Below are positions 30,529 through 48,493 of a stretch of 57,587 nucleotides of DNA, piece by piece. The stretch comes from Pseudomonadota bacterium (GTDB lineage Bacteria; Bdellovibrionota_B; Oligoflexia; Oligoflexales; CAIYRB01). The DNA is taken from the NCBI GenBank assembly GCA_026390435.1, contig JAPLFY010000102.1, positions 1-57,587 of the forward strand, written 5' to 3'. The stretch's first letter is position 1, and the number at the start of each line of letters is the position of its first letter. The notes beneath the pieces were generated by a model that made no database searches, was not told the origin of the DNA, and saw nothing but the letters and a program-made list of their open reading frames with translations. The position numbers and the translations under genes are program-made.

Positions 30529-30910
30529 AGTCGTTGCAGAGCTATTTGCCTATAAACCTTGAGCGTAGTGCTGCGATACGTAAGACGGTCCATACTATTC
30601 CGCGGAAACCGATAATCAAGCAACGCATATTGCAATATATGATAGTCAATTTTGCTGGTTACTATATTTTTTAGTTGGTTCTTCATAGCCTGATTTTATG
30701 CCAGTAAGTGGACTGATTATCAACATACTAGCAATTCAGAGCAGACTGCCCGCAGCGCCTAGCTAAGGTTGTTACCCAGTAAGTAACCGGGTCGCAATGG
30801 CTTGGTATAGCCCTGGTTTACTTGCCGTTCCTTGCAGTTCTTCAGATTTCTCTAAACTGATCTGTCCGTCCGCCGATGAGCATAAAAGCGAGTCATGCGG
30901 AGGAAGTCTT
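30529..30910. other. Intergenic region between AEP-like and NERD helicase genes
   Basis: 382 bases without a supportable gene. It contains a 12-bp perfect palindrome ATATTGCAATAT (30627-30638) and an AT-rich stretch after it. The open frame in front of the helicase (30797-30910) is not conserved-looking and is bypassed by a strong GGAGG site at 30899-30903. Confidence 0.5.
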
Positions 30911-32689
30911 ATGGCCCGAATGTTTCCTAGCTCGTTCCCAAGTAAACCGGCCGCGACCGCCAGTGACGCGAGTGGTCAAAACTTCGAAAGAGCGGTGTAC
31001 GGTTGGTTGCAGCGAAAACTACCGGACACGGCCCTTGTATTTCATTCCTTCAGGATACCGCGCCGAGAAAGCGACAGCCTTTCATTCATCAGTGACGGAT
31101 CCGAAAGAGACGTTTTAGCGGAGATCGATTTTGTGATCGCCAATCCCGGTTGGCCGCTGATCGTAATCGAAGCGAAAGCCGGCCGCTTGCACAACACTCA
31201 CGGGCGCCTATCTCACATGCACGGTCCGAATCATTCTCCGATATTTGTTGCCGACCAGGTTCAACGAGCCATTAATCACTTGAGTCGGTTTCTAGGTGAA
31301 AATATCGCGGGCCTTCCACGCCAGATAATCGCATTTTGTTGTGTTGATGCCTGGAATAATCCAGATCTAGCTGGAGTCGGGGATCTACCAATCCTATACT
31401 TCGACAAATTCGCCCAGCACCTTAGTCCACTTGATCAGCCTGTCATCGTGAATGCTGCGAAAAGTTCAGGCCATACTCTGCTCAGCGTACTCAGCCACGA
31501 TCACATCCAAGAAACCGAACGCCTGTTCACTATTCATGTCGACCGGGAATATCGTCTCACTGCGCAGCGGATCCGTTCAGATGCGGAAGAATTGGGCGAG
31601 AACACTCAGCAGCATATCGACAGGCTCTTGACGACAGAGCTTCACAATCACAGTCGTTTGCTAATCACTGGCTATGCAGGTAGTGGCAAGACCTGGTTAC
31701 TTAAGTCGGCAGCGAAGGACTTGGCTAAGACAGCCTCAAATCATGTTCTGATACTCTGCTACAATGAGCTGCTGGCTCTCGATTTGCGTCAAAGTATCGG
31801 GGACCAGAACGTCCAAGTGTTTAACTTCCATGGTCTCTGCGAATACTTGCTAACCCAACAAAGATTGTCAGCAGAGGTTCCGAAACAATTAATCCGCGCC
31901 GTTCACAAAGACTCTCACTATTACGATGGGCTGAACACAGCTGCCAGTCTGGCGTTAGACCTTAACCCGGAATTGGGGCAACGATTTGATGCTGTAGTTA
32001 TCGATGAGGCCCAGGATTTTGATGTGGACTGGTTGACCCTGGTCGGGCGCCTAACGAAGCCTCAGGCACGCTGGTTTGTCGCGATGGATCCAACGCAAAA
32101 GTGGCGAACAGGCGACCGTGTTCTTTCGCTTGATTCAACGTTACTGACGGGATTTCACCACGTTCATATGGAGCATAACCTCAGAAATACCAGCGCCATT
32201 GCTGACCATGCCACCGCCCACTTCAACGAAGAAGCTACCGAAGATAATGTCATCCACTTGAAACATCCGACGCCAAATTGGCCACAGGGCGCTGCCGTCA
32301 CCACCGTCACCGTTGCCAACCGAAAACAGCTTTGGTCAGAACTGAAACGACAAATCGATCGCCTCATCACCCTCAACGCGCTTAGCCCGGCGGATATTAC
32401 TATTCTAAGCGCTGATTCCCACAAAACACTGAAGACCTTTGATGGGAGTTCATTGCTCACCTATGGAGACCAAGTTGGCGAGTATTTGTTGATCCCCGCA
32501 GAACAAGATGGTTCCGGCATTAGGCTCGACACCATACGACGCTTTAAAGGTCTAGAAAGTCCGGTAGTGATTGTCGTCGAGTACCCTGATACCAGTGGCA
32601 CTTTGAGATATTTAGCATACACCCGTGCTCAGGCTGAACTAATCGTGATACGGGTTGAGGGTGTCAAGTCGAGTCGCAGTGCTGCTTGA
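30911..32689 (+). CDS. NERD nuclease domain-UvrD-like helicase
   Basis: 592 residues from ATG 30911 (GGAGG 7 bases upstream). The N-terminal NERD nuclease region has FERAVYGWLQRKL, then EIDFVIANPGWPLIVIEAKA with D73, E87 and K89 of the PD-(D/E)XK fold. A superfamily 1 helicase follows: Walker A TGYAGSGKTW (254-261), FDAVVIDEAQDFDVDWL (Walker B), IRRFKGLESPVVIVVEY and YLAYTRAQAELIVI (motifs V-VI). NERD-helicases occur on mobile elements and in defence islands. It lies between the AEP-like gene and a tyrosine recombinase, all on the plus strand, so a shared mobile element is likely. Confidence 0.87.
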   Translation: MARMFPSSFPSKPAATASDASGQNFERAVYGWLQRKLPDTALVFHSFRIPRRESDSLSFISDGSERDVLAEIDFVIANPGWPLIVIEAKAGRLHNTHGRLSHMHGPNHSPIFVADQVQRAINHLSRFLGENIAGLPRQIIAFCCVDAWNNPDLAGVGDLPILYFDKFAQHLSPLDQPVIVNAAKSSGHTLLSVLSHDHIQETERLFTIHVDREYRLTAQRIRSDAEELGENTQQHIDRLLTTELHNHSRLLITGYAGSGKTWLLKSAAKDLAKTASNHVLILCYNELLALDLRQSIGDQNVQVFNFHGLCEYLLTQQRLSAEVPKQLIRAVHKDSHYYDGLNTAASLALDLNPELGQRFDAVVIDEAQDFDVDWLTLVGRLTKPQARWFVAMDPTQKWRTGDRVLSLDSTLLTGFHHVHMEHNLRNTSAIADHATAHFNEEATEDNVIHLKHPTPNWPQGAAVTTVTVANRKQLWSELKRQIDRLITLNALSPADITILSADSHKTLKTFDGSSLLTYGDQVGEYLLIPAEQDGSGIRLDTIRRFKGLESPVVIVVEYPDTSGTLRYLAYTRAQAELIVIRVEGVKSSRSAA

Positions 32690-32929: not shown

Positions 32930-33886
32930 ATGAACAACCTAGATCTATATATCCCTAAAGACATAACGCTCCCCGCTGTGATTGAAGGATCTGGGGAGCA
33001 CGCAAAGCTTAGATTCATCGATTTCTTCCTAGTTACTATTCGGAACGCAAACACAAGGGCAGCCTACGGATATGCCATCGGCGCATTTTTCAACTGGTGC
33101 GAATCAAGGGGGGTGACCCTTGCTCAGATCAGCCCTATGGTAGTGTCCGCTTACATTGAGCAGCACCCGGGATCCCCGCTCACCATAAAGCAGCACCTAG
33201 CCGCGATACGATGTCTGTTTGATCACTTAGCCACCGGCGGCATCGTACCTTTTAACCCCGCCGCTCCGGTGAAAGGTCCACGTTACAAACTCACCAAGGG
33301 TAAAACTCCTGTTCTAGATCAAGACGAGGCAGTCGCCATACTTGCAGCATGTGACACGTCGACCCTTATTGGTCTGCGGGATAGAGCTTTATTTAGTGTG
33401 ATGCTCTATTCATTCGCCCGCATCTCAGCGGTGCTTTCGACAAAGGTTGAGGACTACCATCGAAAGTCCGGCCGGGCTTGGCTCAGGCTGCACGAGAAGG
33501 GCGGTCGCTACCACGAGGTGCCGCTACATCATGCTGCGGACCGGGCGCTGAGTGATTATCTTGAGGCAGCGGGAGTGAAAGAAAAGAAAGCCTGGATATT
33601 CCAGTCGACTGACGCATCCACCGGACTAGTGACCGGGCGGGCTATGAAGCGAGCTTCCGCGCTAGAGCGGGTTAAAACCGCCGCTCATTCAGCTGGCCTT
33701 GGCGACAAGATCTCAAATCACTCGTTTCGGGCCACTGGCATAACTTTATACCGCAAAGCTGGTGGCACCCTCGATAAGGCGCAGCAGATAGCGGGTCACG
33801 CTAACGCCGAGACTACCAGGTTGTATGATAGGTCCGGGGATGAGATCGCAGCGTCTGAGGTCGAGAGGATTCAGCTCGGTATTTAG
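32930..33886 (+). CDS. Tyrosine recombinase/integrase
   Basis: 318 residues. N-terminal SAM-like core-binding domain (about 25-110), then the catalytic domain with the full residue set: R164 (FARIS), K190, H264-x-x-R267 (HSFR), H290 (GHANAETT) and Y299 (RLYDR). It cuts and rejoins DNA through the tyrosine. GGAG lies 7 bases before the ATG. Length and compact layout resemble XerC/D or transposon recombinases more than long phage integrases. No attachment site repeat was found nearby by eye. It probably mobilised the accessory DNA around it. Confidence 0.92.
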   Translation: MNNLDLYIPKDITLPAVIEGSGEHAKLRFIDFFLVTIRNANTRAAYGYAIGAFFNWCESRGVTLAQISPMVVSAYIEQHPGSPLTIKQHLAAIRCLFDHLATGGIVPFNPAAPVKGPRYKLTKGKTPVLDQDEAVAILAACDTSTLIGLRDRALFSVMLYSFARISAVLSTKVEDYHRKSGRAWLRLHEKGGRYHEVPLHHAADRALSDYLEAAGVKEKKAWIFQSTDASTGLVTGRAMKRASALERVKTAAHSAGLGDKISNHSFRATGITLYRKAGGTLDKAQQIAGHANAETTRLYDRSGDEIAASEVERIQLGI

Positions 33887-36860: not shown

Positions 36861-37181
36861 TCAAAAGCCGGTAAAATCGATTCTTTGCGACCAATGCTCG
36901 TCTGCTCGTTGCATAGCAGCCACTATCCTTGCTCGGCCGCTTGGGTTCGCGGAATGCACTGCCCAAGTTAGGGGCTTTAGCAGACCGTAAAACGCCTGTT
37001 CCTCAATCCAAACGGCCACCATATAGCCAGACCGTGAGTCAGGCTGAAGTCCGAGGTCGTGATCTAGGCTTAAGTGTGTCACGTTGCCCTGTTTTAGAAG
37101 GGCAATAGCGCTCTCAGGGTCGTTGACATGTACGTCAAAGTCATATGGCTTAGGCCTTTCATCATCGAGCCAGACACGCAT
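36861..37181 (-). CDS. Cyclic-phosphate-processing receiver-like (cREC) protein
   Basis: 106 residues, ATG with GGAGG. Receiver-like fold: WLDDERPKPYDF (acidic D6-D7-E8), LSLDHDLGLQPDSRSGY (D40, H41, D42 where the phospho-Asp strand lies) and VHSANPSGRARI (H76, N79, R85). These extra His/Arg features mark the receiver-like family proposed in comparative genomics to process cyclic phosphate ends in RNA repair and conflict systems. The call fits the RNA-repair genes next door. It stands alone as a single-domain protein. Confidence 0.75.
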   Translation of the reverse strand: MRVWLDDERPKPYDFDVHVNDPESAIALLKQGNVTHLSLDHDLGLQPDSRSGYMVAVWIEEQAFYGLLKPLTWAVHSANPSGRARIVAAMQRADEHWSQRIDFTGF

Positions 37182-37235
37182 GGATGCCTCCGAGCAGTAG
37201 GCAAATGGTTGTGACTAACCATCGTCGAAGGCTGT

Positions 37236-37248
37236 GTCACTTTCTGAC
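37236..37248. repeat. Dispersed 13-bp motif, copy 3
   Basis: GTCACTTTCTGAC, one base off copies 1 and 2, in the leader between the cREC gene and the operator array. Confidence 0.35.
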
Positions 37249-37408
37249 TGTTGGTGACCACCGGCGACAGCACACGCGCGATTTGACAGCGTTACTGAAA
37301 ATTGATCACCGGCAACATATCGATCAGATTTGATGAATGCGCTTTAGGGTTTCAGGTGCCCGGACAGTTAGGGCGTTCGCCTTGCGTGGGTTCAAAGCTA
37401 GAGATCAC

Positions 37409-37465
37409 GTTGTATAGTGCCACACTCGTGTTGTATTATACAACGAAAGTGTTGTATAATACAAC
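37409..37465 (+). promoter_or_regulatory. Three-site operator array with 21-bp spacing, overlapping a promoter
   Basis: Two near-palindromes, GTTGTATTATACAAC (37430-37444) and GTTGTATAATACAAC (37451-37465), are exact reverse complements of each other. Their starts are 21 bp apart. A third copy with only the left half conserved (GTTGTATAGTGCCAC, 37409-37423) is another 21 bp upstream. Spacing of two helical turns would put three dimers on one DNA face. The third site contains a perfect -10 box TATAAT (37455-37460), with TTGTAT about 18 bases upstream. A repressor bound here would block the promoter, which is 28 bases before the ATG at 37489. The rest of the 307-base interval 37182-37488 holds no gene. 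Confidence 0.8.
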
Positions 37466-37488
37466 CTATCGCGGTCGATGGGGTTAGC

Positions 37489-37638
37489 ATGGTCGGATTT
37501 CAACCAAATGAAATAATAGCATCTTTTGACACTTATCTCGCAGAACAATCTCTTAACTTCGAGGCGATCGTAGTTGGTGGAGCAGCTTTGGCGCTTCTTG
37601 GCATCATAACGCGAACAACAAGGGACGTAGGATGGTAA
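37489..37638 (+). pseudogene. Truncated nucleotidyltransferase (DUF6036/AbiEii-like)
   Basis: A 49-residue frame with GGGG about 5 bases before the ATG. AIVVGGAALALLGIITRTTR (residues 26-45) is the start of a minimal nucleotidyltransferase fold of DUF6036/AbiEii type, where normally D-V-D-V follows. Here it reads TRDVGW and then stops, so the second catalytic Asp and the remaining 120-150 residues are lost. The following 57 bases do not restore the sequence in another frame. A deletion has probably removed the rest. Whether the fragment is still translated is unknown. Confidence 0.6.
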
Positions 37639-37695
37639 TCCTGAGTGGCCAAATCACGTTTTGACGGTGGTCGAACGTCTCAATAGGAGCTTGAT

Positions 37696-38421
37696 ATGAC
37701 ACGAAGCATTACCATATTCGACAAGCTCGCCTCGATAGGCTGTCAATTCTCGGATGTGCAACTCGTGAGTGTGGATATCGAAGAAGCGCTAGCCGAAGCA
37801 ATTGAAACGTTGCCTCATTCTAGTGACAGAGGACGTTTTTTGAAGGTGCTTTGCTCGTGGATTATGGAAAACGGCAATCACGTCATCCTGGAAAAGCTAT
37901 CAAAGATATTGGCGAAAAAATCTAACGAAGGTGCGGATATTTCCTACGCAGCGCTGCTCGGAGCTTTCGCTGTGAGCCAGAAACTGCATAAATGGGCCAT
38001 TCTCAAAAAATTCAGACCAGATGTGATTGTCGCGGTAGGAGATCCGAAAGGGAGTACGCAACTTGAGGAGTGGGCCCGTGGAGTGAACTTTTCCCTGAGA
38101 AAAGGCGGGATTCAAACTGACGTAAAATACACCCTAAGCCGTTCGCAAATCGCAAAGATTCATAAGCAGTATCGGAATCGTCTGATTTATGGCGCGCAGT
38201 ATCGGGCCGATATAATAACGGCAACTCAACTCGGTATTACGACAATCAAAGATGTTGTAAGGCTGATCGGAGTGAGTCGCGAACCCGCAAGCCGCGTACT
38301 GGCTGAACTCCGTGATGCTGGATTTATCAAGGACGAAAAAGCAGCAAAGGCTAGTGTTGGATATCTCGATACCGCCGCACCATCCGTAGGTAAGCGTAAA
38401 CCCGCAAAGGCACGCTTGTAG
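37696..38421 (+). CDS. Winged-helix DNA-binding protein, candidate regulator or antitoxin
   Basis: 241 residues, TAGGAG upstream of the ATG. A helix-turn-helix sits near residues 175-215 (ITATQLGITTIKDVVRLIGV, then SREPASRVLAELRDAGFI), typical of winged-helix proteins. The N-terminal 150 residues (FLKVLCSWIMENGNHVILEK, GADISYAALLGAFAVSQKLH) resemble antitoxin or regulator partners of nucleotidyltransferases. The C-terminal 20 residues are Lys/Pro-rich. It follows the truncated nucleotidyltransferase and so would be the surviving half of a toxin-antitoxin pair. It is the natural candidate to bind the operator array upstream (inference). Confidence 0.65.
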   Translation: MTRSITIFDKLASIGCQFSDVQLVSVDIEEALAEAIETLPHSSDRGRFLKVLCSWIMENGNHVILEKLSKILAKKSNEGADISYAALLGAFAVSQKLHKWAILKKFRPDVIVAVGDPKGSTQLEEWARGVNFSLRKGGIQTDVKYTLSRSQIAKIHKQYRNRLIYGAQYRADIITATQLGITTIKDVVRLIGVSREPASRVLAELRDAGFIKDEKAAKASVGYLDTAAPSVGKRKPAKARL

Positions 38422-38463
38422 CGCCGTCAATCTAGTTACCCGCCTTTTTGCTCGCCCCATCCG

Positions 38464-38476
38464 GTCAGTTTGTGAC
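38464..38476. repeat. Dispersed 13-bp motif, copy 4
   Basis: GTCAGTTTGTGAC, extended to 15 bp as GGTCAGTTTGTGACC, a strong inverted repeat right before the Hen1 operon. Its shape recalls the ends of IS21-type insertion sequences; no transposase is nearby. Confidence 0.4.
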
Positions 38477-38566
38477 CCTGCACATGCCGATATTCTTGAT
38501 TAGAGGCAATAAATTGAGCGTATCGCTCCGTCGAGCAGCGACGCGAGCGACGCTAAACAGAGGTGC

Positions 38567-39253
38567 TTGATGCAAAATCACATCTTGAAGATCGATATCA
38601 ACGAGGATTTACCAAAATTTTCTTCCATTTGCGCGCACTGTCTAAGATCAAGTAGCGAGCCCCTACTAAAGGACCTTTGCCAGATCGGCAATAGACTACC
38701 GTATGTCATCATATCGGCTTGTGTCGGTGAACAGCCCAATCAGGTAACGCTAGATGCCAACATTGCGCTGCTAAAAGATATCAAGTCTCGGGGATTTTTA
38801 TCCTTCCAACTGATTGGTAAATATATCCCAGGGCGCATTAGTTATGGTCAAGATCAGGTGCTGCCGATCACAGAGGTGCTTTTTATGGTGTGCTTCGAGG
38901 GGCAGGTCAGTCTTCGAGACTTTATTCATACCTTCATGGACCTTTCATCGAGTCATGGGATAAAGTCTTTCATGCTTGGACTGCCTGAGGACTATGATTA
39001 CGAAAAATGCTCCGTAAACATTGATGCCCTTAGTCCTGGGCACCACTATTTTATCAGTCCGAGCAACGGTCCAACTGTTTTGACGCAGCAATTTAATATC
39101 AACGCAGTAACTAGGTACCAAGCCATGGCCTATCGTGACCGAAGTAGTGCCGAAGTCGACTGGCGTTGGCTAGGTGTCGTGTCGCCGACGAGTTGGATAT
39201 CCGCAATGGGACACAGCTCCGTCGGACTCAGGTGGCACTTACCCAAATGTTAA
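38567..39253 (+). CDS. Unknown protein coupled to Hen1-Pnkp
   Basis: 228 residues, AGAGGTGC before the ATG. Some features are an N-terminal Cys pair (ICAHCLRSSS), a central region IGKYIPGRISYGQDQVLPIT, then SHGIKSFMLGLPEDYDYEKC and a His-containing turn SPGHHYFISPSNGP. No family could be named. Its end overlaps the hen1 start by 7 bases, which suggests coupled synthesis and a linked role. The last 30 residues (from about WRWLGVVSPTSW) could be a frame relict, since the hen1 frame also reads open there. Confidence 0.6.
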   Translation: MMQNHILKIDINEDLPKFSSICAHCLRSSSEPLLKDLCQIGNRLPYVIISACVGEQPNQVTLDANIALLKDIKSRGFLSFQLIGKYIPGRISYGQDQVLPITEVLFMVCFEGQVSLRDFIHTFMDLSSSHGIKSFMLGLPEDYDYEKCSVNIDALSPGHHYFISPSNGPTVLTQQFNINAVTRYQAMAYRDRSSAEVDWRWLGVVSPTSWISAMGHSSVGLRWHLPKC

Positions 39254-40662
39254 TCACGATAACCAATAAAACCGAGCCGGCAACTAATCTAGGCTACCTA
39301 CTCCATAAGAACCCCGCCAAGGTACACCGCGTGGAACTTAGCTTTGGCGACGCCTATATCTTCTATTCAGCGGCAACGGAGCAGTCATGCACCGTGTGTT
39401 TACTTGTCGATGTGGATCCCCTCTCTATGGTGCAAGGTCGCGGTGATTTGGGATATATCGAGGCTCCGTACGTAAACGATCGTCCTTATGTAGCGTCGTC
39501 ACTGCTTACGACCGCCCTGCATAAAGCCTTCGGCACGGCCTTGAGCGGTCGTTGTAAGGAACGCCCCGAGCTGGTCGAACAAGCCCTAGATTTAACCATC
39601 ACCCTGCCAGTCATGATCACTCGCGGTGGCTATCAGATGTTGACCAGGCTGTTCGGGCCGCTCGGTTATATCTTGGATGTGAAATCTGCGAAGTCAGATG
39701 AAGGCCAGAGTCACAGCCATCACGCGTCGCCTCAGTCTGTGACCATGCATACGATAGCTCCGATTCGCGAGGTGCTATCGCACTTGAGTCTGTTGATTCC
39801 TGTGGCTGATCACCAGAATCATCGCTGGCTCGAAGCTTTTGATGCGGAAGTCATGCTGCGCCGCGCCCAAAATTGGCTCCCGCAACATCCGGAAGCACGG
39901 CTTATCATCAGACGTGCTCTAAAGCACCAACGGCACCTCTATAAGAGCGTGATGGCTAAGTACCCAGACATAGGAACAGGGCCTGACTCTTACGGCGGCA
40001 TCTGGGATGACGAAGACTTTGATCAGGCGGCGGATCATCCCGAAAGTCTGAATCAGCAGCGCTTTGATGCTATTGGGCAAGCGACCCTGGAGATTGGCGG
40101 GAAGACCGTCGTAGATCTGGGCTGCGGCAACGGTAAATTGATCGCGCAGCTAACCGCAAATCCGAATATCACCAAACTTGTCGGCATGGATGCCTCAGTC
40201 GAGTGTGTCAGCCGTGCTAAGGATCGATTGAGCAAGGCAAAAATCAGCCCTCACCAACTAAGTAAGGTGTCTTTTAAGCAAGGGTCTTTGTTTTATGATG
40301 ATCCTGAGCTCAGCTGCTTTGATACCGCCTTATTAATTGAGGTGATCGAACATTTAGAGGTCGATAGACTCCCCACCCTAGAACGCCTGTTGTTTGGCCG
40401 GGCAAATCACTCCGCAATCATCGTGACTACCCCGAACCGGGAATATAACGCTCTCTATGCAGGCCTGGGCGAAGGTGATTTGCGTCATTCGGATCACCGA
40501 TTTGAGTGGAGCCGCGGCGAGTTTCACAAGTGGGTCTCAAGTATGTCGGCAACCTATGACTATAGTGCCGAAATAAGAGACATTGGGCTGGTGGATCCGA
40601 GTAGAGGCGCTCCCACGCAAATGGCGATCTTTCGTAAAAATCGCTCGGAGACCACCAAATGA
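39247..40662 (+). CDS. hen1: Hen1 3'-terminal RNA ribose 2'-O-methyltransferase
   Basis: 471 residues from ATG 39247; the open frame continues upstream to 39166 but family proteins start with MLITITNKTEPATNLGYLLH, exactly as here. The N-terminal domain (1-about 250) has VELSFGDAYIFYSAATEQ. The C-terminal methyltransferase has VVDLGCGNGKLIAQL (SAM) and the metal site EVIEHLE, with a later His in RANHS. It methylates the 2'-OH at the 3' end of a cut tRNA before Pnkp seals it, protecting the repaired site from re-cleavage. Its stop overlaps pnkp (ATGA), the standard coupled order. Confidence 0.95.
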   Translation: MLITITNKTEPATNLGYLLHKNPAKVHRVELSFGDAYIFYSAATEQSCTVCLLVDVDPLSMVQGRGDLGYIEAPYVNDRPYVASSLLTTALHKAFGTALSGRCKERPELVEQALDLTITLPVMITRGGYQMLTRLFGPLGYILDVKSAKSDEGQSHSHHASPQSVTMHTIAPIREVLSHLSLLIPVADHQNHRWLEAFDAEVMLRRAQNWLPQHPEARLIIRRALKHQRHLYKSVMAKYPDIGTGPDSYGGIWDDEDFDQAADHPESLNQQRFDAIGQATLEIGGKTVVDLGCGNGKLIAQLTANPNITKLVGMDASVECVSRAKDRLSKAKISPHQLSKVSFKQGSLFYDDPELSCFDTALLIEVIEHLEVDRLPTLERLLFGRANHSAIIVTTPNREYNALYAGLGEGDLRHSDHRFEWSRGEFHKWVSSMSATYDYSAEIRDIGLVDPSRGAPTQMAIFRKNRSETTK

Positions 40663-43268
40663 CTGTCCTTCAGATCCCAGAATTTGCTTTGGTGTTACTC
40701 ATGGGACCGTCGGGGGCGGGTAAGAGCACTTTTGGTCGGCGTCACTTCTTGCCGTCAGAAGTCGTATCCTCGGACCATTGCCGAGAGATGGTCTGTGATG
40801 ATGAGGGATCTCAGGAGGCCAATGTCGCGGCCTTTAAAATTCTGCATATGGTAGTAGAGGCTCGCCTTAAACTTGGCCGGTTTACTGTTGTCGATGCCAC
40901 CAATGTAGAGCCTGAAGCGCGGCGGCCATTAATTGCCTTGGCTAAGAAATATCATGCGTTTGCCGTTGCCGTGGTTTTAGACCTTCCTGCTGAGCTATGT
41001 ATTGCTCGCAATGATAACCGAGCGGGCCGAGCCCAGTCGCAACGCTACGTGGAAAAGCAGGCTCTAAACCTACGACAGTCTCTCAAACGGCTGGAAAAAG
41101 ACGGCGTCCGCTATGTTCATATATTTAAGACACCCGAGGCCATCGAGAGCCTTACGATCGAAAAACAGCGCCTCTGGACCAACCGCAGAGATGACCATGG
41201 ACCATTCGATTTAATCGGCGATATTCACGGGTGCTGCGATGAGCTGCGAGATCTCTTGGCTGGCTTGGGCTACTGCGCCGAGAGTGTCTCCGTTGATACA
41301 ACTAAAGACGGAATTATTACTGAAGACACATCTGAAATTTATCGGCATCCCGAAGGTCGGCGCGTTATCTTTCTGGGCGACTTTGTTGACCGCGGGCCTA
41401 AAGTGCTTGAGACAGCTAAACTGGTCATGAACATGACCGCAGCCGGCACGGCCCTTTGCGTCCCGGGCAATCATGAAGTTAAACTGCTCAAACACCTAGA
41501 TGGACGTCAGGTGCGAGTGAGTCATGGTCTCGAGCAAAGCATCGCGGAATTTTCCTCGGCACCGCCTGAATTCGTGGCTCAGTTCCGCGAGTTTCTCCGT
41601 GGGCTAGTCAGCCACTACGTGCTTGATCGCGGAAGGCTGGTAGCTGCACATGCTGGCCTTTCCGAAGAGTTACAAGGTAGGACTTCTGGAGTGGTCCGAT
41701 CCTTCGCACTTTACGGCGAGACAACTGGCGAAACCGATGAATTTGGTCTGCCTGTGCGGCATCCATGGGCGCGGAGCTACCGCGGCAAAGCAGTAGTCGT
41801 ATACGGCCACACCCCGGTGCCGGAAGCAGAATGGCTTAATAACACTATTTGTGTAGATACCGGCTGCGTATACGGCGGGAAGTTAACGGCACTCAGGTGG
41901 CCGGAGCGTGAACTACTCTCAGTCCCGGCTAAGCGAGTATACTGTGAGCCCGCAAAACCGCTGAAGATGCCGACTGCAGCAGAGGATCAGCGCAGCGATC
42001 AGCAAGTGGCGGACGATATTCTGGAGCTTGCGGACGTCACAGGCAAGATGCTGATTGAAACTCGTTTAAGCGGTCGCCTCGCGATTAAAGCTGAACAATC
42101 AGCCGCGGCACTCGAGACTATGAGCCGTTTTGGTGTCGATCCACGGTGGTTAATTTATCTACCCCCGACGATGTCGCCGCCTGAGACCTCTGCGTTGCCA
42201 GTTTTACTTGAGCATCCTGCTGAGGCTTTTCAGTACTATGAAAAGCGCGGCGTAAAGACTGTTATTTGTGAAGAAAAGCACATGGGATCCCGCGCGATTG
42301 TGGTGATCTGCCGCGACGCAGCTGCTGCCAAAAGGCGCTTCGGGGTCACTGATGGATCCATGGGCTTAGTTTACTCGCGAAGCGGCAGACGCTTTTTCAA
42401 GGATCTTAGCCTAGAGGCAGAGCTCCTGACCCGACTAAGTGTTGCAGCAGAGAATGCAGCAATTTGGGCTGAGCTTAAATCCGACTGGATGGTGATCGAT
42501 GCGGAAATCTTACCATGGTCGTTTAAGGCGGGAGACCTGATCCAGCGCCAGTACGCCAGTGTGGGGGACAGCGGCAAGGCCATGCTGTCGTCAGCCCTAA
42601 CAATAATTGACTCAGCGATTGACTCAGCTACCGGAAGTCGTGACGAACTGATCAGCCTTAGTGGCAAGCTCGCGGAGCGGTTAGACAGTGTCACCCGTTA
42701 CTGCGAGGCTTATAGGCGATTTGTTTGGCCGGTTCATGGACTTACCGACCTAAAGGTCGCACCGTTTCATTTACTCGCCAGCGAAGGTAGCGTGCATACT
42801 GATAAAAATCATGTATGGCACTTGAGCATCCTGAAGAGACTGGCCGAAGCCGATCCTGCGGTCTTTCAGGAGACTAAATTTCGCTTGGTCGACATCCACT
42901 CAGCTGATTCAAAAAGTGAGGCTGAAACATGGTGGCAAGAAATCACGACTGCGGGCGCTGAGGGCATGGTCGTTAAACCGTGTAGCTTTACCGCTTCGCA
43001 GCAGGGAAAATTAATTCAGCCCGCCTTGAAGGTACGGGGCGCAGAATACCTTAGGCTGATCTACGGACCTGAGTATTTGGTTGCGGATAATTTAGAGCGA
43101 CTTCGGGCTCGGTCGCTGAGTACCAAGAGGTCGCTGGCGATCAGAGAGTTTTCTCTGGGTCTGGAGGCGCTTGAGCGCTTTGTTAGGCGAGAGCCTTTGC
43201 GTAAGGTTCACGAGTGTGTGTTTGGGGTGCTGGCGCTTGAGAGTGAGGTGGTGGATGTCAGGCTGTGA
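40659..43268 (+). CDS. pnkp: Pnkp polynucleotide kinase-phosphatase-ligase
   Basis: 869 residues, the usual bacterial Pnkp length (about 850). The domains are a 5'-kinase with P-loop GPSGAGKST (16-24), and a calcineurin-like 2',3'-phosphatase with GDIHG (187-191), GDFVDRG (240-246), GNHE (270-273), HAGLS (331-335) and YGHTPVP. The last is an adenylyltransferase ligase with EEKHMGSRAIVV (nucleotide-accepting K540). It heals 5'-OH and 2',3'-cyclic phosphate ends and, with Hen1, seals cleaved RNA. All motifs look intact. It overlaps hen1 by 4 bases. Confidence 0.97.
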   Translation: MTVLQIPEFALVLLMGPSGAGKSTFGRRHFLPSEVVSSDHCREMVCDDEGSQEANVAAFKILHMVVEARLKLGRFTVVDATNVEPEARRPLIALAKKYHAFAVAVVLDLPAELCIARNDNRAGRAQSQRYVEKQALNLRQSLKRLEKDGVRYVHIFKTPEAIESLTIEKQRLWTNRRDDHGPFDLIGDIHGCCDELRDLLAGLGYCAESVSVDTTKDGIITEDTSEIYRHPEGRRVIFLGDFVDRGPKVLETAKLVMNMTAAGTALCVPGNHEVKLLKHLDGRQVRVSHGLEQSIAEFSSAPPEFVAQFREFLRGLVSHYVLDRGRLVAAHAGLSEELQGRTSGVVRSFALYGETTGETDEFGLPVRHPWARSYRGKAVVVYGHTPVPEAEWLNNTICVDTGCVYGGKLTALRWPERELLSVPAKRVYCEPAKPLKMPTAAEDQRSDQQVADDILELADVTGKMLIETRLSGRLAIKAEQSAAALETMSRFGVDPRWLIYLPPTMSPPETSALPVLLEHPAEAFQYYEKRGVKTVICEEKHMGSRAIVVICRDAAAAKRRFGVTDGSMGLVYSRSGRRFFKDLSLEAELLTRLSVAAENAAIWAELKSDWMVIDAEILPWSFKAGDLIQRQYASVGDSGKAMLSSALTIIDSAIDSATGSRDELISLSGKLAERLDSVTRYCEAYRRFVWPVHGLTDLKVAPFHLLASEGSVHTDKNHVWHLSILKRLAEADPAVFQETKFRLVDIHSADSKSEAETWWQEITTAGAEGMVVKPCSFTASQQGKLIQPALKVRGAEYLRLIYGPEYLVADNLERLRARSLSTKRSLAIREFSLGLEALERFVRREPLRKVHECVFGVLALESEVVDVRL

Positions 43269-43344
43269 GGTTTTAAAGCGATGAGTCTATGAGCGCGCTG
43301 TTTCGGAAATTTCCTGAACATTCACGCCATCATCAAGCCTAACC

Positions 43345-44049
43345 TCATGGGTGACCGACTTTTGCCAAAAGTTTGCCCTGAGGGCCTGACGTCACTTTGA
43401 TAACCGTCGGTTTATTTTCTGCCTGCCGCCCTTGCCCGCAGATAGACGCATTTACAACCAAAACACCTGTGTCACTGGTCTCAACACCCGCTCCCTCGTG
43501 AATGTGTCCGCATATTACCGCTGATAGACTCGGAAGCTTGGATATCTTGCCAGTCAGTGCCGAGCAGCCAGCATGGCGCCCCGAGTCGTCCGGAATGCAG
43601 TCACGGAGTCCGTGCGGAGGCCCATGCACGATGAGTACGTGGGTACTCTCAGGGATCAGGTCCCACTTCTCTGCCCGTTCTAGTTCATCATTCAAATTGA
43701 ATGCTAAGTTTCCGTACGAAGGCTGCCAGGGAGTGCCCCAGAAATTGATGCCGTCGATAGAGATTCCTTGGTCTTCAAGGTAGATGATCTTAGCGAGGAT
43801 GAATCGGTCCAATACCTCACGCCTATGAGCGCTGTTCAGCATGAGTAACTCGTGGTTACCGGAGATCACGATCTTGTGAGCATATGGTAGCTCATCCAGC
43901 CAATGAATGAACTCCAATGCGTCCGCAATATTTTTGCCGAACATAGTCCAGTCACCGGCATGGACCAGGATATCGCCTGGCGGCATCTCAATATTGCGAT
44001 GTTGGAGATGCGTATCGCTGATACAAACTATGGTGGCATTGACAGTCAA
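43345..44049 (-). CDS. Calcineurin-like metallophosphoesterase
   Basis: 234 residues with TTG start at 44049 preceded by GGAGGAG. Metal motifs: ISDTHLQH, VHAGDWTMFG, SGNHELLML, VHGPPHG and CGHIHEGAG. These fit the MPPED/UPF0046-like branch of metallophosphoesterases that hydrolyse cyclic nucleotides or other phosphodiesters. It follows prfH by 61 bases on the same strand, so it probably belongs to the WYL-rtcB-prfH operon and might process 2',3'-cyclic or 2'-phosphate ends (inference). Confidence 0.85.
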   Translation of the reverse strand: MTVNATIVCISDTHLQHRNIEMPPGDILVHAGDWTMFGKNIADALEFIHWLDELPYAHKIVISGNHELLMLNSAHRREVLDRFILAKIIYLEDQGISIDGINFWGTPWQPSYGNLAFNLNDELERAEKWDLIPESTHVLIVHGPPHGLRDCIPDDSGRHAGCSALTGKISKLPSLSAVICGHIHEGAGVETSDTGVLVVNASICGQGRQAENKPTVIKVTSGPQGKLLAKVGHP

Positions 44050-44110
44050 AATTACTCCTCCTAATCAAGAAATTCTGACAGATAGGCGAAAGTCATGCGG
44101 CAGTTTAGTC

Positions 44111-44740
44111 CTAGCCCCTGACGAAGTTGTCTCCGCGAAACACCCTCGACGCATTCCCCCTCACAACACCTTGGTGATTGTCCCACCTACTCTTCTCGGT
44201 GGCCATGTTTTCAGATGCGGCTTGTTCAGCTAAGCGCTGCTTCAGCTTACTAACCGCAACTTTGCGATTTTGAGTTTGTGACCTAGTCTCGCGCGCCGTA
44301 ACCACGATCCCCGACTTAGGGTCCACGGCCCGGACTGCGGAGTTGGTTTTATTCACATTTTGGCCTCCGGGACCGCTGGCTCGCATGCTTTCGAATTTGG
44401 CTGCGGCCGTCAGCTTTCCTTCTGCCACTCTCGTATCTACCTCGGATACGCTGACAAACCAGTTCTTGCGCTTGTGAGTCGGCCGGTAAGGGCTTTGCCC
44501 CACCCACTGCACAGTGCCAAGCCAAGTAGCGGCGAACGGCGCCGCCTGATCGCCAGTAAGCCGCACAACTGCAGAAAGCATCGCCGCTGGACCATCGCCA
44601 GCAAGAGGAATGCTGCTTAGGACGGTGCACTTAAGTCCCGCCGCATCCGCCTCTTTCAATAGGACCTGCAGCAGGCGCGCGACTACATAGGCACATTCCC
44701 TTGGCCCGCGTCCGGCAGTGATTTGTAAATCAAAGTTCAT
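44111..44740 (-). CDS. prfH: Release factor-like protein PrfH (RF-H)
   Basis: 209 residues, GAGG before the ATG. GGQ loop SGPGGQNVNKTNSAVRAV (GGQ at 125-127), then ETRSQTQNRKVAVSKLKQRL, as in class I release factors without domain I. It lacks the codon-reading domain, so it frees stalled peptides independently of a stop codon. In known systems PrfH partners RtcB2 to release the peptide from ribosomes with cut 16S rRNA, after which the ligase reseals it. It lies 27 bases downstream of rtcB, the classic pairing. Confidence 0.93.
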   Translation of the reverse strand: MNFDLQITAGRGPRECAYVVARLLQVLLKEADAAGLKCTVLSSIPLAGDGPAAMLSAVVRLTGDQAAPFAATWLGTVQWVGQSPYRPTHKRKNWFVSVSEVDTRVAEGKLTAAAKFESMRASGPGGQNVNKTNSAVRAVDPKSGIVVTARETRSQTQNRKVAVSKLKQRLAEQAASENMATEKSRWDNHQGVVRGNASRVFRGDNFVRG

Positions 44741-44767
44741 GGTCGACCTCTGTAGTTGAGAGTGTGC

Positions 44768-45901
44768 TCAGCCCCGATCCCGGTCAGGATCGGCTGTTTT
44801 ATAGGTGATGACAGGTTTCAACCTGGCCACCACCTTGAGCAGGCCCGGTTCGGCAAGATCATTGATCACTGTGTCTATGTTCTTGTAGGCCTCTGGTGCC
44901 TCTTCGAGTAATAGGTCTTTATTGTCACAGATGACTATGCTGCCGAGTTTCGTTTGGCGCAGCGAATCAAGGCTGACCTGACCCTTGAGCCTGGCCTTAA
45001 TGGCGCTGCGGTTCCATTTACGTCCGGCGCCGTGGGCAAGAGACCAGGCATTGCTTGTTTGGTCGCCAACGGGAACGACGAGATAACTATAAGCACCGCG
45101 TGATCCCGGGATCAGCAGTGGCCCCTGATCCGATGGCGCTGCTCCTTTGCGGTGTAGCCACCCTTCCCCACCGTCGAAGGTGCACTGGGTGACGCTGTTG
45201 TGGCACAGATCCAGCACCCGGTCACCGTCGCCGCCGATGATGTCAAGTATCCTTGACGCAATGAGCGCTCTGTTTGCAGCGGCCCAGCGCATGGCATCAT
45301 TGTGCCTACCGAGGTAGACCGCCGCCTCCGCAGAAATAACCTCAAGCCCCTTCGCGCCGTGAATACTCGTGTGACTGCGGAGTATCCAGTCCCCGAGCCC
45401 GCGTGAGCCGCTGTGCACTGCCAGCACCAGCCGGTCCTTACTCAGCCCGAGTGACTCAAGGACCTCCGTGTCTTCGACCTTGTCGATCATTTGTAGTTCG
45501 GCAAAGTGGTTGCCGGCCCCAATAGAGCCCAGCGACGATTCCCAGCTTGGTGTCGGCACGCCGTGGGCCGCTAGCCACGCCGCCGGATCGCCGTCCCACT
45601 GTTCTTCAAGAGCAACTAGCTTGGCACCCCATTTGTCGCGTTTCACCTTGGATGTTTTAATGCCTGTAGTCCACAGCCCAATACCGCAACCAATATCGCT
45701 ACCCACGAGAAAGGGATAAATATTCCCCACGGATATGAATGCGGCGCCTATCGCATGACCCTTACCAGGATGGAGATCTGGTAAGCCTACCCCGTAGACC
45801 ATCCCGGGCAGGGTAAGAGTATGGCGCAGTTGCTGGACCGCATCGCCTTCGATCCAGCTCTTCTCTGACGCGAAAATTCGTAAATTGGATTCATTAATCA
45901 T
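44768..45901 (-). CDS. rtcB: RNA-splicing ligase RtcB family, PrfH-linked type
   Basis: 377 residues from ATG 45901 (GGGAG 10 bases upstream); an in-frame TTG at 45994 adds 31 residues and has a poor site. RtcB hallmarks: PGMVYGVGLPDLHPGKGHAI, VGSDIGCGIGLWTTG (metal-binding Cys), GAGNHFAELQ, VHSGSRGLGDWIL, CHNSVTQ and HGAGRKWNRSAIK with the GMP-accepting His. It ligates 5'-OH to 2',3'-cyclic phosphate or 3'-phosphate RNA ends. At about 380 residues it fits the shorter RtcB2 group. Upstream is a WYL gene; an open reading extension and 109 bases separate them. Confidence 0.95.
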   Translation of the reverse strand: MINESNLRIFASEKSWIEGDAVQQLRHTLTLPGMVYGVGLPDLHPGKGHAIGAAFISVGNIYPFLVGSDIGCGIGLWTTGIKTSKVKRDKWGAKLVALEEQWDGDPAAWLAAHGVPTPSWESSLGSIGAGNHFAELQMIDKVEDTEVLESLGLSKDRLVLAVHSGSRGLGDWILRSHTSIHGAKGLEVISAEAAVYLGRHNDAMRWAAANRALIASRILDIIGGDGDRVLDLCHNSVTQCTFDGGEGWLHRKGAAPSDQGPLLIPGSRGAYSYLVVPVGDQTSNAWSLAHGAGRKWNRSAIKARLKGQVSLDSLRQTKLGSIVICDNKDLLLEEAPEAYKNIDTVINDLAEPGLLKVVARLKPVITYKTADPDRDRG

Positions 45902-46010
45902 GGATAGTAGTCTCCCTAACGCAGGGTGATTAGCATATGACAAGCTTGGGTCAAATTCTGACTTTGCCTCGTTTAAATGCACTAATACGTACAACTTTCC
46001 CGGCTACTCA

Positions 46011-46871
46011 TTACTTGCTCACGAACTTCGCAAAATGAGCCCTCACGAGATGGTCAATCTTCAAACCTAGCGGAACGATAAAATTGCAGCTTTTGTCCCA
46101 TTTTGCCGCAGCCAAAGTGCTGAGGGGAAATATAACGATATCTTCCATGCCAGTCTCGGGCGGCCGGCGACTCGCTGCTAAATGTAGCTCCCCATGATGC
46201 AGGATCAGTTTTAGTGGAAACAGCGTCTCGTCTGGGCTAACTACGCCAGCAGACTTGGGCCAAGTGACGGTTAGAGTTTGTTCGCGCGTTAGCGCTTCAA
46301 ATACATCATCGACGATCTCGGAACATTGCTTGGCGCTACGTTCTGGTTCGACCAAATTCATGAACTTTTTACGCTGACGTTCAAAATTCTGTTTTTCCTG
46401 CGGGCTAAGACTCGCAGTGTTACTGTCGTACACTGTTTGGAATTGATGAAATACAGTAGTCTCAGCTAATGGACTCAGTAGTTCCATGAGAAGTGGAAAT
46501 ACCGTGAAGTTGCGCGGATGCGGCGGAGCGAGATCCGGAACGGCTAGTCGGAAATAGACACGGTTATGGGCCTTAGCTGGCCTTCCATCTTCGTCTTGGT
46601 ACTCCAGACCTGGATAGCCAAGTACACGCTCACTCGCATCATCGATCACTTTGCGTATGTCGAGGAATCTGCGCCTGGATCCCCACTCCTCGTCGAAGGA
46701 GTTAATCCGTAGGCGAGACCCAGTCTTGAGCAGCTTAATGTAAACTTGAAGAGCCCTAAATGCTAAAGAGCCATCTGACCTCTTCTTGTTTTTTACTACA
46801 GCATCAGACTTGTCTACGTGACTCGACGCTGCTTTGCTTTCCGCGGATTTTTTAGTTTTCTTGCTGCCCAT
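46011..46871 (-). CDS. WYL-domain regulator, short form
   Basis: 286 residues. Lys/Ser-rich start (MGSKKTKKSAESKAA), helical wHTH-like part (about 35-120), linker (FERQRKKFMNLVEPERSAKQ), then a WYL core with LFPLKLILHHGELHLAASRR and FPLSTLAAAKW. The usual C-terminal WCX extension is missing. WYL proteins sense nucleic acid or nucleotide ligands and control repair and defence operons. It is upstream of and co-directional with rtcB-prfH, so it probably controls or is co-expressed with them. It and the gene at 47198 are paralogues (inference from layout and RKKF/LYLDRSSRKF linkers). Confidence 0.82.
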   Translation of the reverse strand: MGSKKTKKSAESKAASSHVDKSDAVVKNKKRSDGSLAFRALQVYIKLLKTGSRLRINSFDEEWGSRRRFLDIRKVIDDASERVLGYPGLEYQDEDGRPAKAHNRVYFRLAVPDLAPPHPRNFTVFPLLMELLSPLAETTVFHQFQTVYDSNTASLSPQEKQNFERQRKKFMNLVEPERSAKQCSEIVDDVFEALTREQTLTVTWPKSAGVVSPDETLFPLKLILHHGELHLAASRRPPETGMEDIVIFPLSTLAAAKWDKSCNFIVPLGLKIDHLVRAHFAKFVSK

Positions 46872-47197
46872 GTTGAAGGTCTCCGTTTGCTTTCGCTTGA
46901 TGTGCAGCCAAACAGCAAGGGCAGACTAATTTGAGTCCATGTATGCCCTGTTATTTGACGCAACAGCGTTGTCGGAGACCGGCCGATCAAAAAGTGACCG
47001 GTCTAAACGATGCAGGTGCCTTAACTACTCAAAACTATTTGATTAGTTTGTGCATGTACGATTTGTAATTTTTTCTCGTTTAGGACCCAGTCGGAACAGG
47101 CGATTAAAAGGCAAATCTGCGCTGTTTAGTTGCTGGAAATAGCGAGTAAGTCGCTGTAACTCATGGGGTATCTAATCGTCGGCACTAGCACTAAAAG
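46872..47197. other. Intergenic region between the two WYL genes
   Basis: 326 bases, no gene supported; a 35-residue open frame on the plus strand near 46938 has no features. It holds a GACCGG/CCGGTC inverted repeat (46977-46982 with 46998-47003) which encloses GATCAAAAAGTGACC (46985-46999, a diverged, inverted relative of the dispersed 13-bp motif), and an AT-rich stretch about 47030-47080 that could carry a promoter for the minus-strand WYL operon. Confidence 0.45.
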
Positions 47198-48232
47198 TCA
47201 ATAGTTACTGGCGGCATCGCTAAGAGAGGTACGAACACGGTCCCGTAGCTCTTTTGGTGCGACGACTCGAATACTCGGGCCAAAGCTTAAGACCCAGCTA
47301 GCGACTTCGGTAAGGTTATTAACCTGCATCCGCAGGAAGGTTTTTCCGGCCCGCTCTATGTACTCATCATTAGCTGTCCAGCGCCTAGCACGCAGATACT
47401 CGACGATGTCAGGGCTGAGTATTTCGATTTCTACCTTATAAATCTTGGTGGACTCACCTTGAAAGATTCCAAAGGTATCTTTGAAGAAGGCGGAAGGATC
47501 AAAATTCGCCGGATAGCGAAACTTTTTTCGGGTGCAAATAACTTCAATCAGAGTCTCGATCCTATAAGACTTAGGCCTAGCATCTGGATGGTCGGGAGAA
47601 TTAGCCAGAAGATAAAGTCCCCCTTGAAACAGTAGAATGCTCAGGGGGAGAAGATTTTCTTTTGCCTCGGTTCCGTCAGATTTTCTGCGTGTAACGCTAA
47701 GGACCTTCTCCTGAAGTAGTCCTTTGTAAACCTGTTTAACTTGCTCACTCTGTTGGCTATAGTCCTTCGCCCCTTTAATGATGTTATAAAATTTGCGGGA
47801 CGACCTATCGAGGTACAGGCGTTCCTTCTTGGAAAGGTTCTGACGCCCCTGATCGTAAAGAGTCTGAAAGTCCTGCTCCAAGAAAGTTCCCTGTAGCAGC
47901 CGCAAAAGCTGCATATACGCGGGAATCACAGCGAGGTTGCTGGTGTGCGCGAAACGGACGGCGCCGTCTCTTAGCCTGATGAAGCGGTCTTCACCCTGCG
48001 TCCAGGCCGTACCCGCGGCGTTTACGAATTCAAAGAGTAGCTCGCCACGTTCGCTTTCCCATGCCGAATTTAGGACCTTTAAAAGCCTACGAACAGTAGT
48101 GGGAGATCCCCACGCCGGATCACTGAGAAAGTCGGCTGGCACTTGGCCGTGCATCCCAAGTAATTTGACGATCAGTTTGATCGAGCGGATCAAAGTTGTG
48201 CCGTCAGCTTTCTTTTTGTTTACCTTCGCCAA
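47198..48232 (-). CDS. WYL-domain transcriptional regulator
   Basis: About 344 residues. TTG at 48232 has AAGG 8 bases upstream and starts LAKVNKKKADG; the frame opens at another TTG at 48247. N-terminal wHTH (GTTLIRSIKLIVKLLGMHGQ, then WGSPTTVRRLLKVLNSAWES), helical middle, WYL domain with LLPLSILLFQGGLYLLANSP, and a complete C-terminal extension (KVEIEILSPDIVEYLRARRW, then FGPSIRVVAPKEL). It is likely the full-length regulator of the island, with the shorter paralogue at 46011. It stands upstream and on the same strand. No DNA target was identified. Confidence 0.88.
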   Translation of the reverse strand: MAKVNKKKADGTTLIRSIKLIVKLLGMHGQVPADFLSDPAWGSPTTVRRLLKVLNSAWESERGELLFEFVNAAGTAWTQGEDRFIRLRDGAVRFAHTSNLAVIPAYMQLLRLLQGTFLEQDFQTLYDQGRQNLSKKERLYLDRSSRKFYNIIKGAKDYSQQSEQVKQVYKGLLQEKVLSVTRRKSDGTEAKENLLPLSILLFQGGLYLLANSPDHPDARPKSYRIETLIEVICTRKKFRYPANFDPSAFFKDTFGIFQGESTKIYKVEIEILSPDIVEYLRARRWTANDEYIERAGKTFLRMQVNNLTEVASWVLSFGPSIRVVAPKELRDRVRTSLSDAASNY

Positions 48233-48493
48233 GTATAGGACCTTCAAAAATCGTCGTGAGATCCGGGAGCACCAATGTGTGTATCGTCCAAATGGGGGCG
48301 AAATGTAGCAGGGGCCTGGTGTTTGTGGCGTTTGAGGCTGGATTGATTGGATTTTTGTTGGGTTTGATGCGAGTGAGTGTGTAGTGGTTTGGCTAGTTTA
48401 GCTAATAAACGGAAGGCGCATAACCGTTTGATTGGTTGCGTCACCAGATGCGGTGTGATCCCGCAAACACAAGATGCCAGATATTTTGAGGTC

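Follow-up and report, generated by a model that had tools for sequence, protein, structure and literature searches.

A Pnkp/Hen1 and an RtcB2/PrfH module side by side in one genomic island of a member of the Bdellovibrionota_B

The window analysed is a whole stretch of DNA of 57,587 nucleotides (contig JAPLFY010000102.1, assembly GCA_026390435.1) from a Pseudomonadota bacterium placed by GTDB in the class Oligoflexia of the Bdellovibrionota_B. Positions 36861–48247 hold an island in which two RNA-repair modules adjoin: Pnkp/Hen1 and RtcB2/PrfH. Each is already known separately, as the original prediction for this DNA had said; new is the combination of the two. Their union is rare but recurrent. 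No published description of PrfH and Pnkp/Hen1 in one locus was found in the literature searched.

Gene content and core enzymes

The plus-strand pair hen1-pnkp is convergent with a minus-strand cluster made up of a long WYL gene, a short WYL-like gene, rtcB2, prfH and a metallophosphoesterase gene. Profile searches find Hen1, Pnkp, RtcB2, PrfH, the metallophosphoesterase, cREC and the WYL proteins in the stretch for which the original prediction had named them; its right edge of the island, 48232, is corrected to 48247. The core genes, the rest of the minus-strand cluster and cREC are as follows (aa, amino acids).

39247–40662, plus strand: Hen1, 3'-terminal RNA ribose 2'-O-methyltransferase with a ligase-activating N-terminal domain; TIGR04074, 501 bits (cut-off 340).
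40659–43268, plus strand: Pnkp, kinase-phosphatase-ligase, 869 aa; TIGR04075, 1290.6 bits (cut-off 750).
44768–45994, minus strand: RtcB2-type RNA ligase; PRK09588, 497 bits, and TIGR03073, 451 bits.
44111–44740, minus strand: PrfH, peptide chain release factor H; TIGR03072, 225.6 bits (cut-off 166.65).
43345–44049, minus strand: metallophosphoesterase of PADLOC family PDC-S10; E 3.7e-69.
46011–46871, minus strand: short WYL-like protein lacking the WCX domain, 16 bp upstream of rtcB2; PADLOC WYL, E 0.0015 (marginal).
47198–48247, minus strand: long WYL/WCX transcription regulator; WCX, E 1.3e-14, PADLOC WYL, E 1.2e-23.
36861–37181, minus strand: cREC (cyclic-phosphate processing receiver) protein, 106 aa; PF20274, 82.5 bits, E 3.7e-23.

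The layout is operon-like on both strands. The end of an orphan reading frame runs 7 bp into hen1, and that of hen1 4 bp into pnkp; overlap of the three genes had been claimed earlier. On the minus strand the short WYL-like gene is followed after 16 bp by rtcB2, after 27 bp by prfH and after 61 bp by the phosphoesterase gene; the long WYL gene lies 326 bp upstream of the short one. All four core proteins score above the curated cut-offs of their families, catalytic motifs are kept in all island enzymes, and every open reading frame tested scores best by codon usage in its own frame. RtcA, RtcR and Rsr genes were not found among the island proteins.

Hen1 consists of an N-terminal Hen1_L domain (PF12623, E 1.8e-76) and a C-terminal methyltransferase. 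Motifs EVIEHL and DHRFEW are present and the metal site is kept; bacterial relatives with solved structure are 4dqz and 3jwh. Pnkp is full length, with the family match covering residues 3–869. Its kinase, phosphatase and ligase motifs are all intact, and each domain has solved relatives. Repair and 2'-O-methylation of tRNA are predicted for this pair by analogy with published relatives. A full Pnkp occurs in 3 of 56 genomes of the window's phylum. Three related genomes hold the kinase-phosphatase half of Pnkp without the ligase, and two sister genomes show short ligase-part matches on other contigs. A search of viral contigs for Pnkp gave two contigs.

RtcB2 is the sole RtcB found in this genome assembly. 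Its active-site residues are kept in an alignment to solved RtcB, and in trees it groups with PrfH-linked RtcB2 proteins. The true start of rtcB2 may lie about 90 bp downstream of the annotated one. The gene stands directly 5' of prfH on the same strand. PrfH has an intact GGQ loop (GPGGQNVNK) and matches the solved PrfH 9mor at E 9e-51. By comparison with studied relatives, the island's RtcB2-PrfH would act on 16S rRNA cut by colicin E3. Carriage of RtcB2/PrfH or of Hen1 by phages is rejected: Hen1 was not found in phage records, nor a relative of RtcB2 in viral contigs. Elsewhere, one locus (L169) has a 589-aa open frame with PrfH directly after RtcB2, possibly an RtcB2-PrfH fusion. In two others prfH has no detectable RtcB2 nearby; directly upstream of it are a GTPase-like gene in L166 (judged by eye) and a long gene of another kind in L174.

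Recurrence and origin of the joint locus

Sixty PrfH loci were compared: 3 in the phylum, 7 on plasmids and 50 elsewhere, with up to 10 kb read on each side. Hen1/Pnkp is near PrfH in 3 of the 60, namely in the window, in a genome of the same order (G033) and on plasmid pSR-1 of Skermanella rosea. The count is a lower bound, because some loci, including G010, end at contig ends. The original prediction had staked itself on adjacency of the two modules in other genomes; this held, with Hen1-Pnkp no more than about 2.5 kb from RtcB2-PrfH in both G033 and pSR-1.

At E <= 1e-45, PrfH was found in 3 of 58 genomes of the phylum, 4 of 385 Alphaproteobacteria, 21 of 296 Bacteroidota, 13 of 398 Pseudomonadota, 3 of 274 Planctomycetota and 7 of 266 genomes in the phylum of a Myxococcales genome. 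Because it is so rare (1–7% of the samples outside the phylum), three joint loci in 60 exceed random placement. By a rough estimate about 0.01 joint cases are expected in 60 loci, and two are seen beyond the window. Pnkp is assumed here in about 5% of PrfH genomes, and placement is taken as random over about 4.5 Mb; the expected number would be higher if the tendency of defence genes to cluster were counted in.

Conservation of gene order, the other property on which the original prediction was to be judged, is not borne out. Each of the three joint loci has its own order and orientation, which rules out strict order conservation. In G033 the genes run phosphoesterase-WYL (plus), pnkp and hen1 (minus) and rtcB2-prfH (plus), all within 8.2 kb; the same stretch holds an AbiEi gene, a sirtuin-like gene and a PIN-type gene. 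On pSR-1 hen1-pnkp is followed by two small genes of unknown kind, a third such gene on the opposite strand and rtcB2-prfH; after prfH come a gene for an AAA ATPase resembling a candidate defence family and a PD-(D/E)XK nuclease gene. The window and G033 have six gene families in common in different order, among them the PDC-S10 phosphoesterase and a WYL/WCX regulator. The phosphoesterases of these two loci have no match in other Pnkp or PrfH loci, and when the neighbours of Hen1/Pnkp (92) and of PrfH (110) are pooled for Pfam scans, neither WYL nor phosphoesterase belongs to the commonest families.

PrfH of the window and of G033 are sisters in trees (92–98%). A clade of the window and Skermanella PrfH is rejected (approximately unbiased (AU) test, p 0.004), and at least two separate assemblies of the joint locus are therefore likely; a single origin of all three is unsupported. 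Joining the three RtcB2 in one clade is borderline (p 0.047). A clade of the window and G033 is not rejected for RtcB2 (p 0.13), Hen1 (p 0.41) or Pnkp (p 0.58), and the window's Hen1 and Pnkp group with a stand-alone Hen1-Pnkp locus of genome G035 (97%). Within the phylum, inheritance and rebuilding of the joint state both appear compatible with the trees. One plasmid of Rhizobium leguminosarum (NZ_CP140867) carries PrfH at about 409 kb and Pnkp at about 580 kb, far apart.

Associated proteins, operon head and surroundings

The phosphoesterase is related to vertebrate MPPED2, a class III phosphodiesterase (E 1.3e-42). Metal-site motifs are present, including the histidine of GHIH; GHIH is also found in 3rl4, and GGIH in 3rl3 and 3rl5. 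A role on cyclic phosphate ends is plausible by analogy, because SpdA, a bacterial enzyme of this class, acts specifically on 2',3'-cyclic nucleotides (PMC4222275). Neighbours of its relatives in viral contigs include nothing RNA-repair-like except one poly(A) polymerase-type gene. On two Marinobacter plasmids PDC-S10-like phosphoesterase genes lie directly 3' of, and overlap, a 3'-5' exonuclease gene.

The identification of cREC stands. Both aspartate motifs, LDDERP and DHDLG, are kept, no histidine-kinase gene lies beside it, and among 56 genomes of the phylum the only copy is that of this genome. Of the two WYL regulators proposed, the long one holds: it has WYL together with WCX, at a Pfam WYL score below cut-off (E 0.0018). 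The short one is 30% identical to it and has no Pfam match; with a marginal WYL match and no WCX region, it does not combine WYL with WCX. Published work places cREC and WYL proteins in contexts of RNA repair and cyclic-end sensing (PMC7824862, PMC9503650).

The original prediction had overlooked a helix-turn-helix (HTH) gene, a decayed nucleotidyltransferase gene and a tandem palindromic operator, all at the head of the plus operon. These features, the orphan and two upstream genes are as follows.

37391–37418, plus strand: promoter-like site TTCAAA-16-TATAGT just 5' of the operator; weak consensus match.
37430–37465, plus strand: tandem operator, two 15-bp palindromes GTTGTATNATACAAC, 21 bp from start to start; perfect inverted pair.
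37489–37695, plus strand: decayed DUF6036 nucleotidyltransferase gene; a 49-aa N-terminus, then a stop.
37696–38421, plus strand: 241-aa protein with a C-terminal winged HTH; matches E 2.5e-4 to 0.02, under cut-offs; coding signal by codon usage.
38567–39253, plus strand: orphan open reading frame, 228 aa, overlapping hen1; codon usage favours coding.
30797–32689: NERD-UvrD helicase gene resembling defence-associated proteins; PADLOC NERD+UvrD, E 8.9e-27.
32930–33886: phage-type integrase gene, after the helicase gene.

The exact tandem pattern occurs once in the window and in 0 of 100 shuffles; it was not found in the other loci compared. Promoter-like sites of the kind seen 5' of it are no more numerous in the region than expected by chance. 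The 49-aa stretch matches PF19502 (DUF6036) at E 2.4e-4 and 21.4 bits, just below the cut-off of 23.6. A piece resembling the nucleotidyltransferase C-terminus lies in another frame, its stop overlapping the start of the HTH gene, and the gene has suffered a large internal loss. Positions 37489–38421 resemble what is left of a nucleotidyltransferase-HTH pair. As binder of the palindromes the HTH protein is the most straightforward candidate, hence a candidate autoregulator, and it may be a former partner of the nucleotidyltransferase; its structure model gave no useful fold match.

Searches of Pfam, NCBIfam, PADLOC, PHROGs, plasmids, phages and 55 further genomes from the phylum gave no convincing match to the orphan. 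Its fold model is of low confidence (mean predicted local distance difference test score 40.8). AdoMet decarboxylase, phage SAM lyase, CutA and HPPK folds are the best fold matches, all above E 1e-3, and none is assigned.

The helicase and integrase genes sit 3–6 kb left of the island. With these two genes beside it, the region may represent a defence island that was acquired. A search for an attachment repeat with the tmRNA gene gave no clear one.

Function, alternatives and known systems

The favoured explanation, at a probability of about 0.6, is a composite RNA-repair and ribosome-rescue island against ribotoxins whose cut, a transesterification, gives RNA with 2',3'-cyclic phosphate and 5'-OH ends. 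Most ribotoxins leave such ends, and complexes of the Pnkp-Hen1 type repair them with a protective methyl group (PMC4411300). RtcB2-PrfH shields Escherichia coli against colicin E3, not against the tRNA-cutting colicins E5 and D, which makes the two modules complementary (PMC9223846). A broad answer to damage of both tRNA and rRNA, as first proposed, fits this published complementarity (PMC9223846, PMC4411300); the joint function is a predicted one.

The chemistry of each module would be that of its published relatives. Pnkp would heal the ends of cut tRNA; Hen1 would 2'-O-methylate the 3' end and switch on the Pnkp ligase, and the methylated, repaired tRNA should therefore resist a second cut. 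PrfH would enter ribosomes cut in the decoding centre of 16S rRNA and release the stuck peptide, and RtcB2 would afterwards reseal the 16S rRNA. The MPPED2-like phosphoesterase and cREC would probably act on leftover 2',3'-cyclic phosphates and open them, whether at RNA ends or in small nucleotides. The WYL proteins, predicted sensors of cyclic-end RNA fragments, probably control the minus operon; the plus operon is probably under the separate HTH protein, acting at the tandem palindromic operator. Such an arrangement would be expected to give common induction and joint protection.

The 2',3'-cyclic phosphate end appears to be the common theme of the island, because the ends left by ribotoxins, the chemistry of the modules and the contexts of cREC and WYL proteins all concern cyclic ends. 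A stronger version remains tentative: a single regulated programme, turned on when WYL proteins sense cut RNA ends, in which tRNA and 16S rRNA are repaired and 2',3'-cyclic phosphates are removed, assembled more than once in bacteria. The claim that cREC and the WYL proteins belong to one unit with the core is weaker, WYL being common to two of the three joint loci and cREC found in one.

Several observations weigh against the composite island. Hen1/Pnkp is not nearby in 57 of the 60 PrfH loci, some of them cut by contig ends. PrfH is in the flanks of 0 of 80 Pnkp loci drawn from other genomes of many phyla; together with the 3 of 60 PrfH loci this rules out the union as a widespread system. 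Among 50 Pnkp genomes 3 hold PrfH, once 2.5 Mb from Pnkp and twice on other contigs. Order and strand are not conserved, and the modules of the window are convergent with separate promoters. cREC is not found in the other two joint loci. Defence genes cluster anyway, and the neighbourhood may be a shared landing place.

The same observations suit two independent modules that lie side by side in a defence island and work alone, with no common signal or product. Convergent separate operons, an order that changes from one joint locus to the next, the integrase and NERD-helicase genes upstream of the window's island, the AbiEi gene in G033, the candidate defence gene in the Skermanella locus and the many loci of either module that lack the other all agree with independence. 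It is judged less likely than the composite island: both modules are rare, yet three loci from two phyla unite them, two of these loci also share a phosphoesterase family and a WYL regulator, and the known targets of the modules are complementary (PMC9223846).

Shared substrates are a further alternative. Pnkp/Hen1 might mend or methylate cut 16S rRNA freed by PrfH, or RtcB2 might seal tRNA, with the phosphoesterase and cREC choosing the ligase. Both ligation routes begin at 2',3'-cyclic phosphate and 5'-OH ends. Repair parts are also often mixed, because an RtcB of another type than RtcB2 stands beside Hen1/Pnkp in 6 of 80 Pnkp loci and the nucleotidyltransferase RlaP, a common Hen1/Pnkp neighbour, makes up 14 of 92 scanned neighbours. 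Such mixing is reportedly a known theme, treated in a 2016 review in Nucleic Acids Research. RtcB2-PrfH gave no protection against tRNA-cutting colicins in E. coli (PMC9223846), and cross-module repair is held to be improbable. Non-RtcB2 RtcB genes lie no more than a few kb from Hen1/Pnkp in six loci of other phyla (L041, L057, L072, L075, L078 and L090); in L041 some 20 bp separate the end of the gene from hen1. An element that is a relic or has partly decayed, and that no longer works as a unit, would account for the broken nucleotidyltransferase gene at the head of the plus operon, the short WYL protein without WCX and the short Pnkp fragments in sister genomes, and is very improbable, since the core enzymes are all full length, keep their motifs and show normal codon usage.

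Each repair system covers only part of ribotoxin damage. If the composite island is what it appears to be, a natural union of this kind would show bacteria protecting all of their translation machinery in layers. The island is a compact gene set for asking whether WYL proteins sense cyclic RNA ends, and bears on whether bacterial RNA repair makes use of an MPPED2-like enzyme, a kind known from animal brain.

Pnkp/Hen1 of the Clostridium thermocellum type has the same full-length three-domain Pnkp, the same Hen1 with ligase-activating domain and methyltransferase, and overlapping genes. The island differs in the upstream orphan and HTH gene and in the adjoining RtcB2/PrfH; RlaP was not found in it. 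The Pnkp1-Rnl-Hen1 complex has the same chemistry, with 2'-O-methylation at the repair junction; its ligase is separate, whereas that of the island is fused in Pnkp. The rtcBA and rsr-yrlBA-rtcBA operons under RtcR are likewise regulated RtcB-based RNA repair; the island has the RtcB2 subfamily with PrfH, and WYL proteins nearby instead of CARF-sigma54 control. In the RtcB2-PrfH operon of E. coli ATCC25922 rtcB2 is likewise directly upstream of prfH on one strand, with GGQ and the RtcB active-site residues kept; that of the island has in addition the PDC-S10 phosphoesterase gene after it, the short WYL-like gene before it and Pnkp/Hen1 beside it. Plasmid pSR-1 of Skermanella rosea holds the same set of Hen1, Pnkp, RtcB2 and PrfH within 8 kb. 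Unlike in the window, WYL, phosphoesterase and cREC were not found there, the core proteins belong to other branches, and the four core genes lie on one strand.

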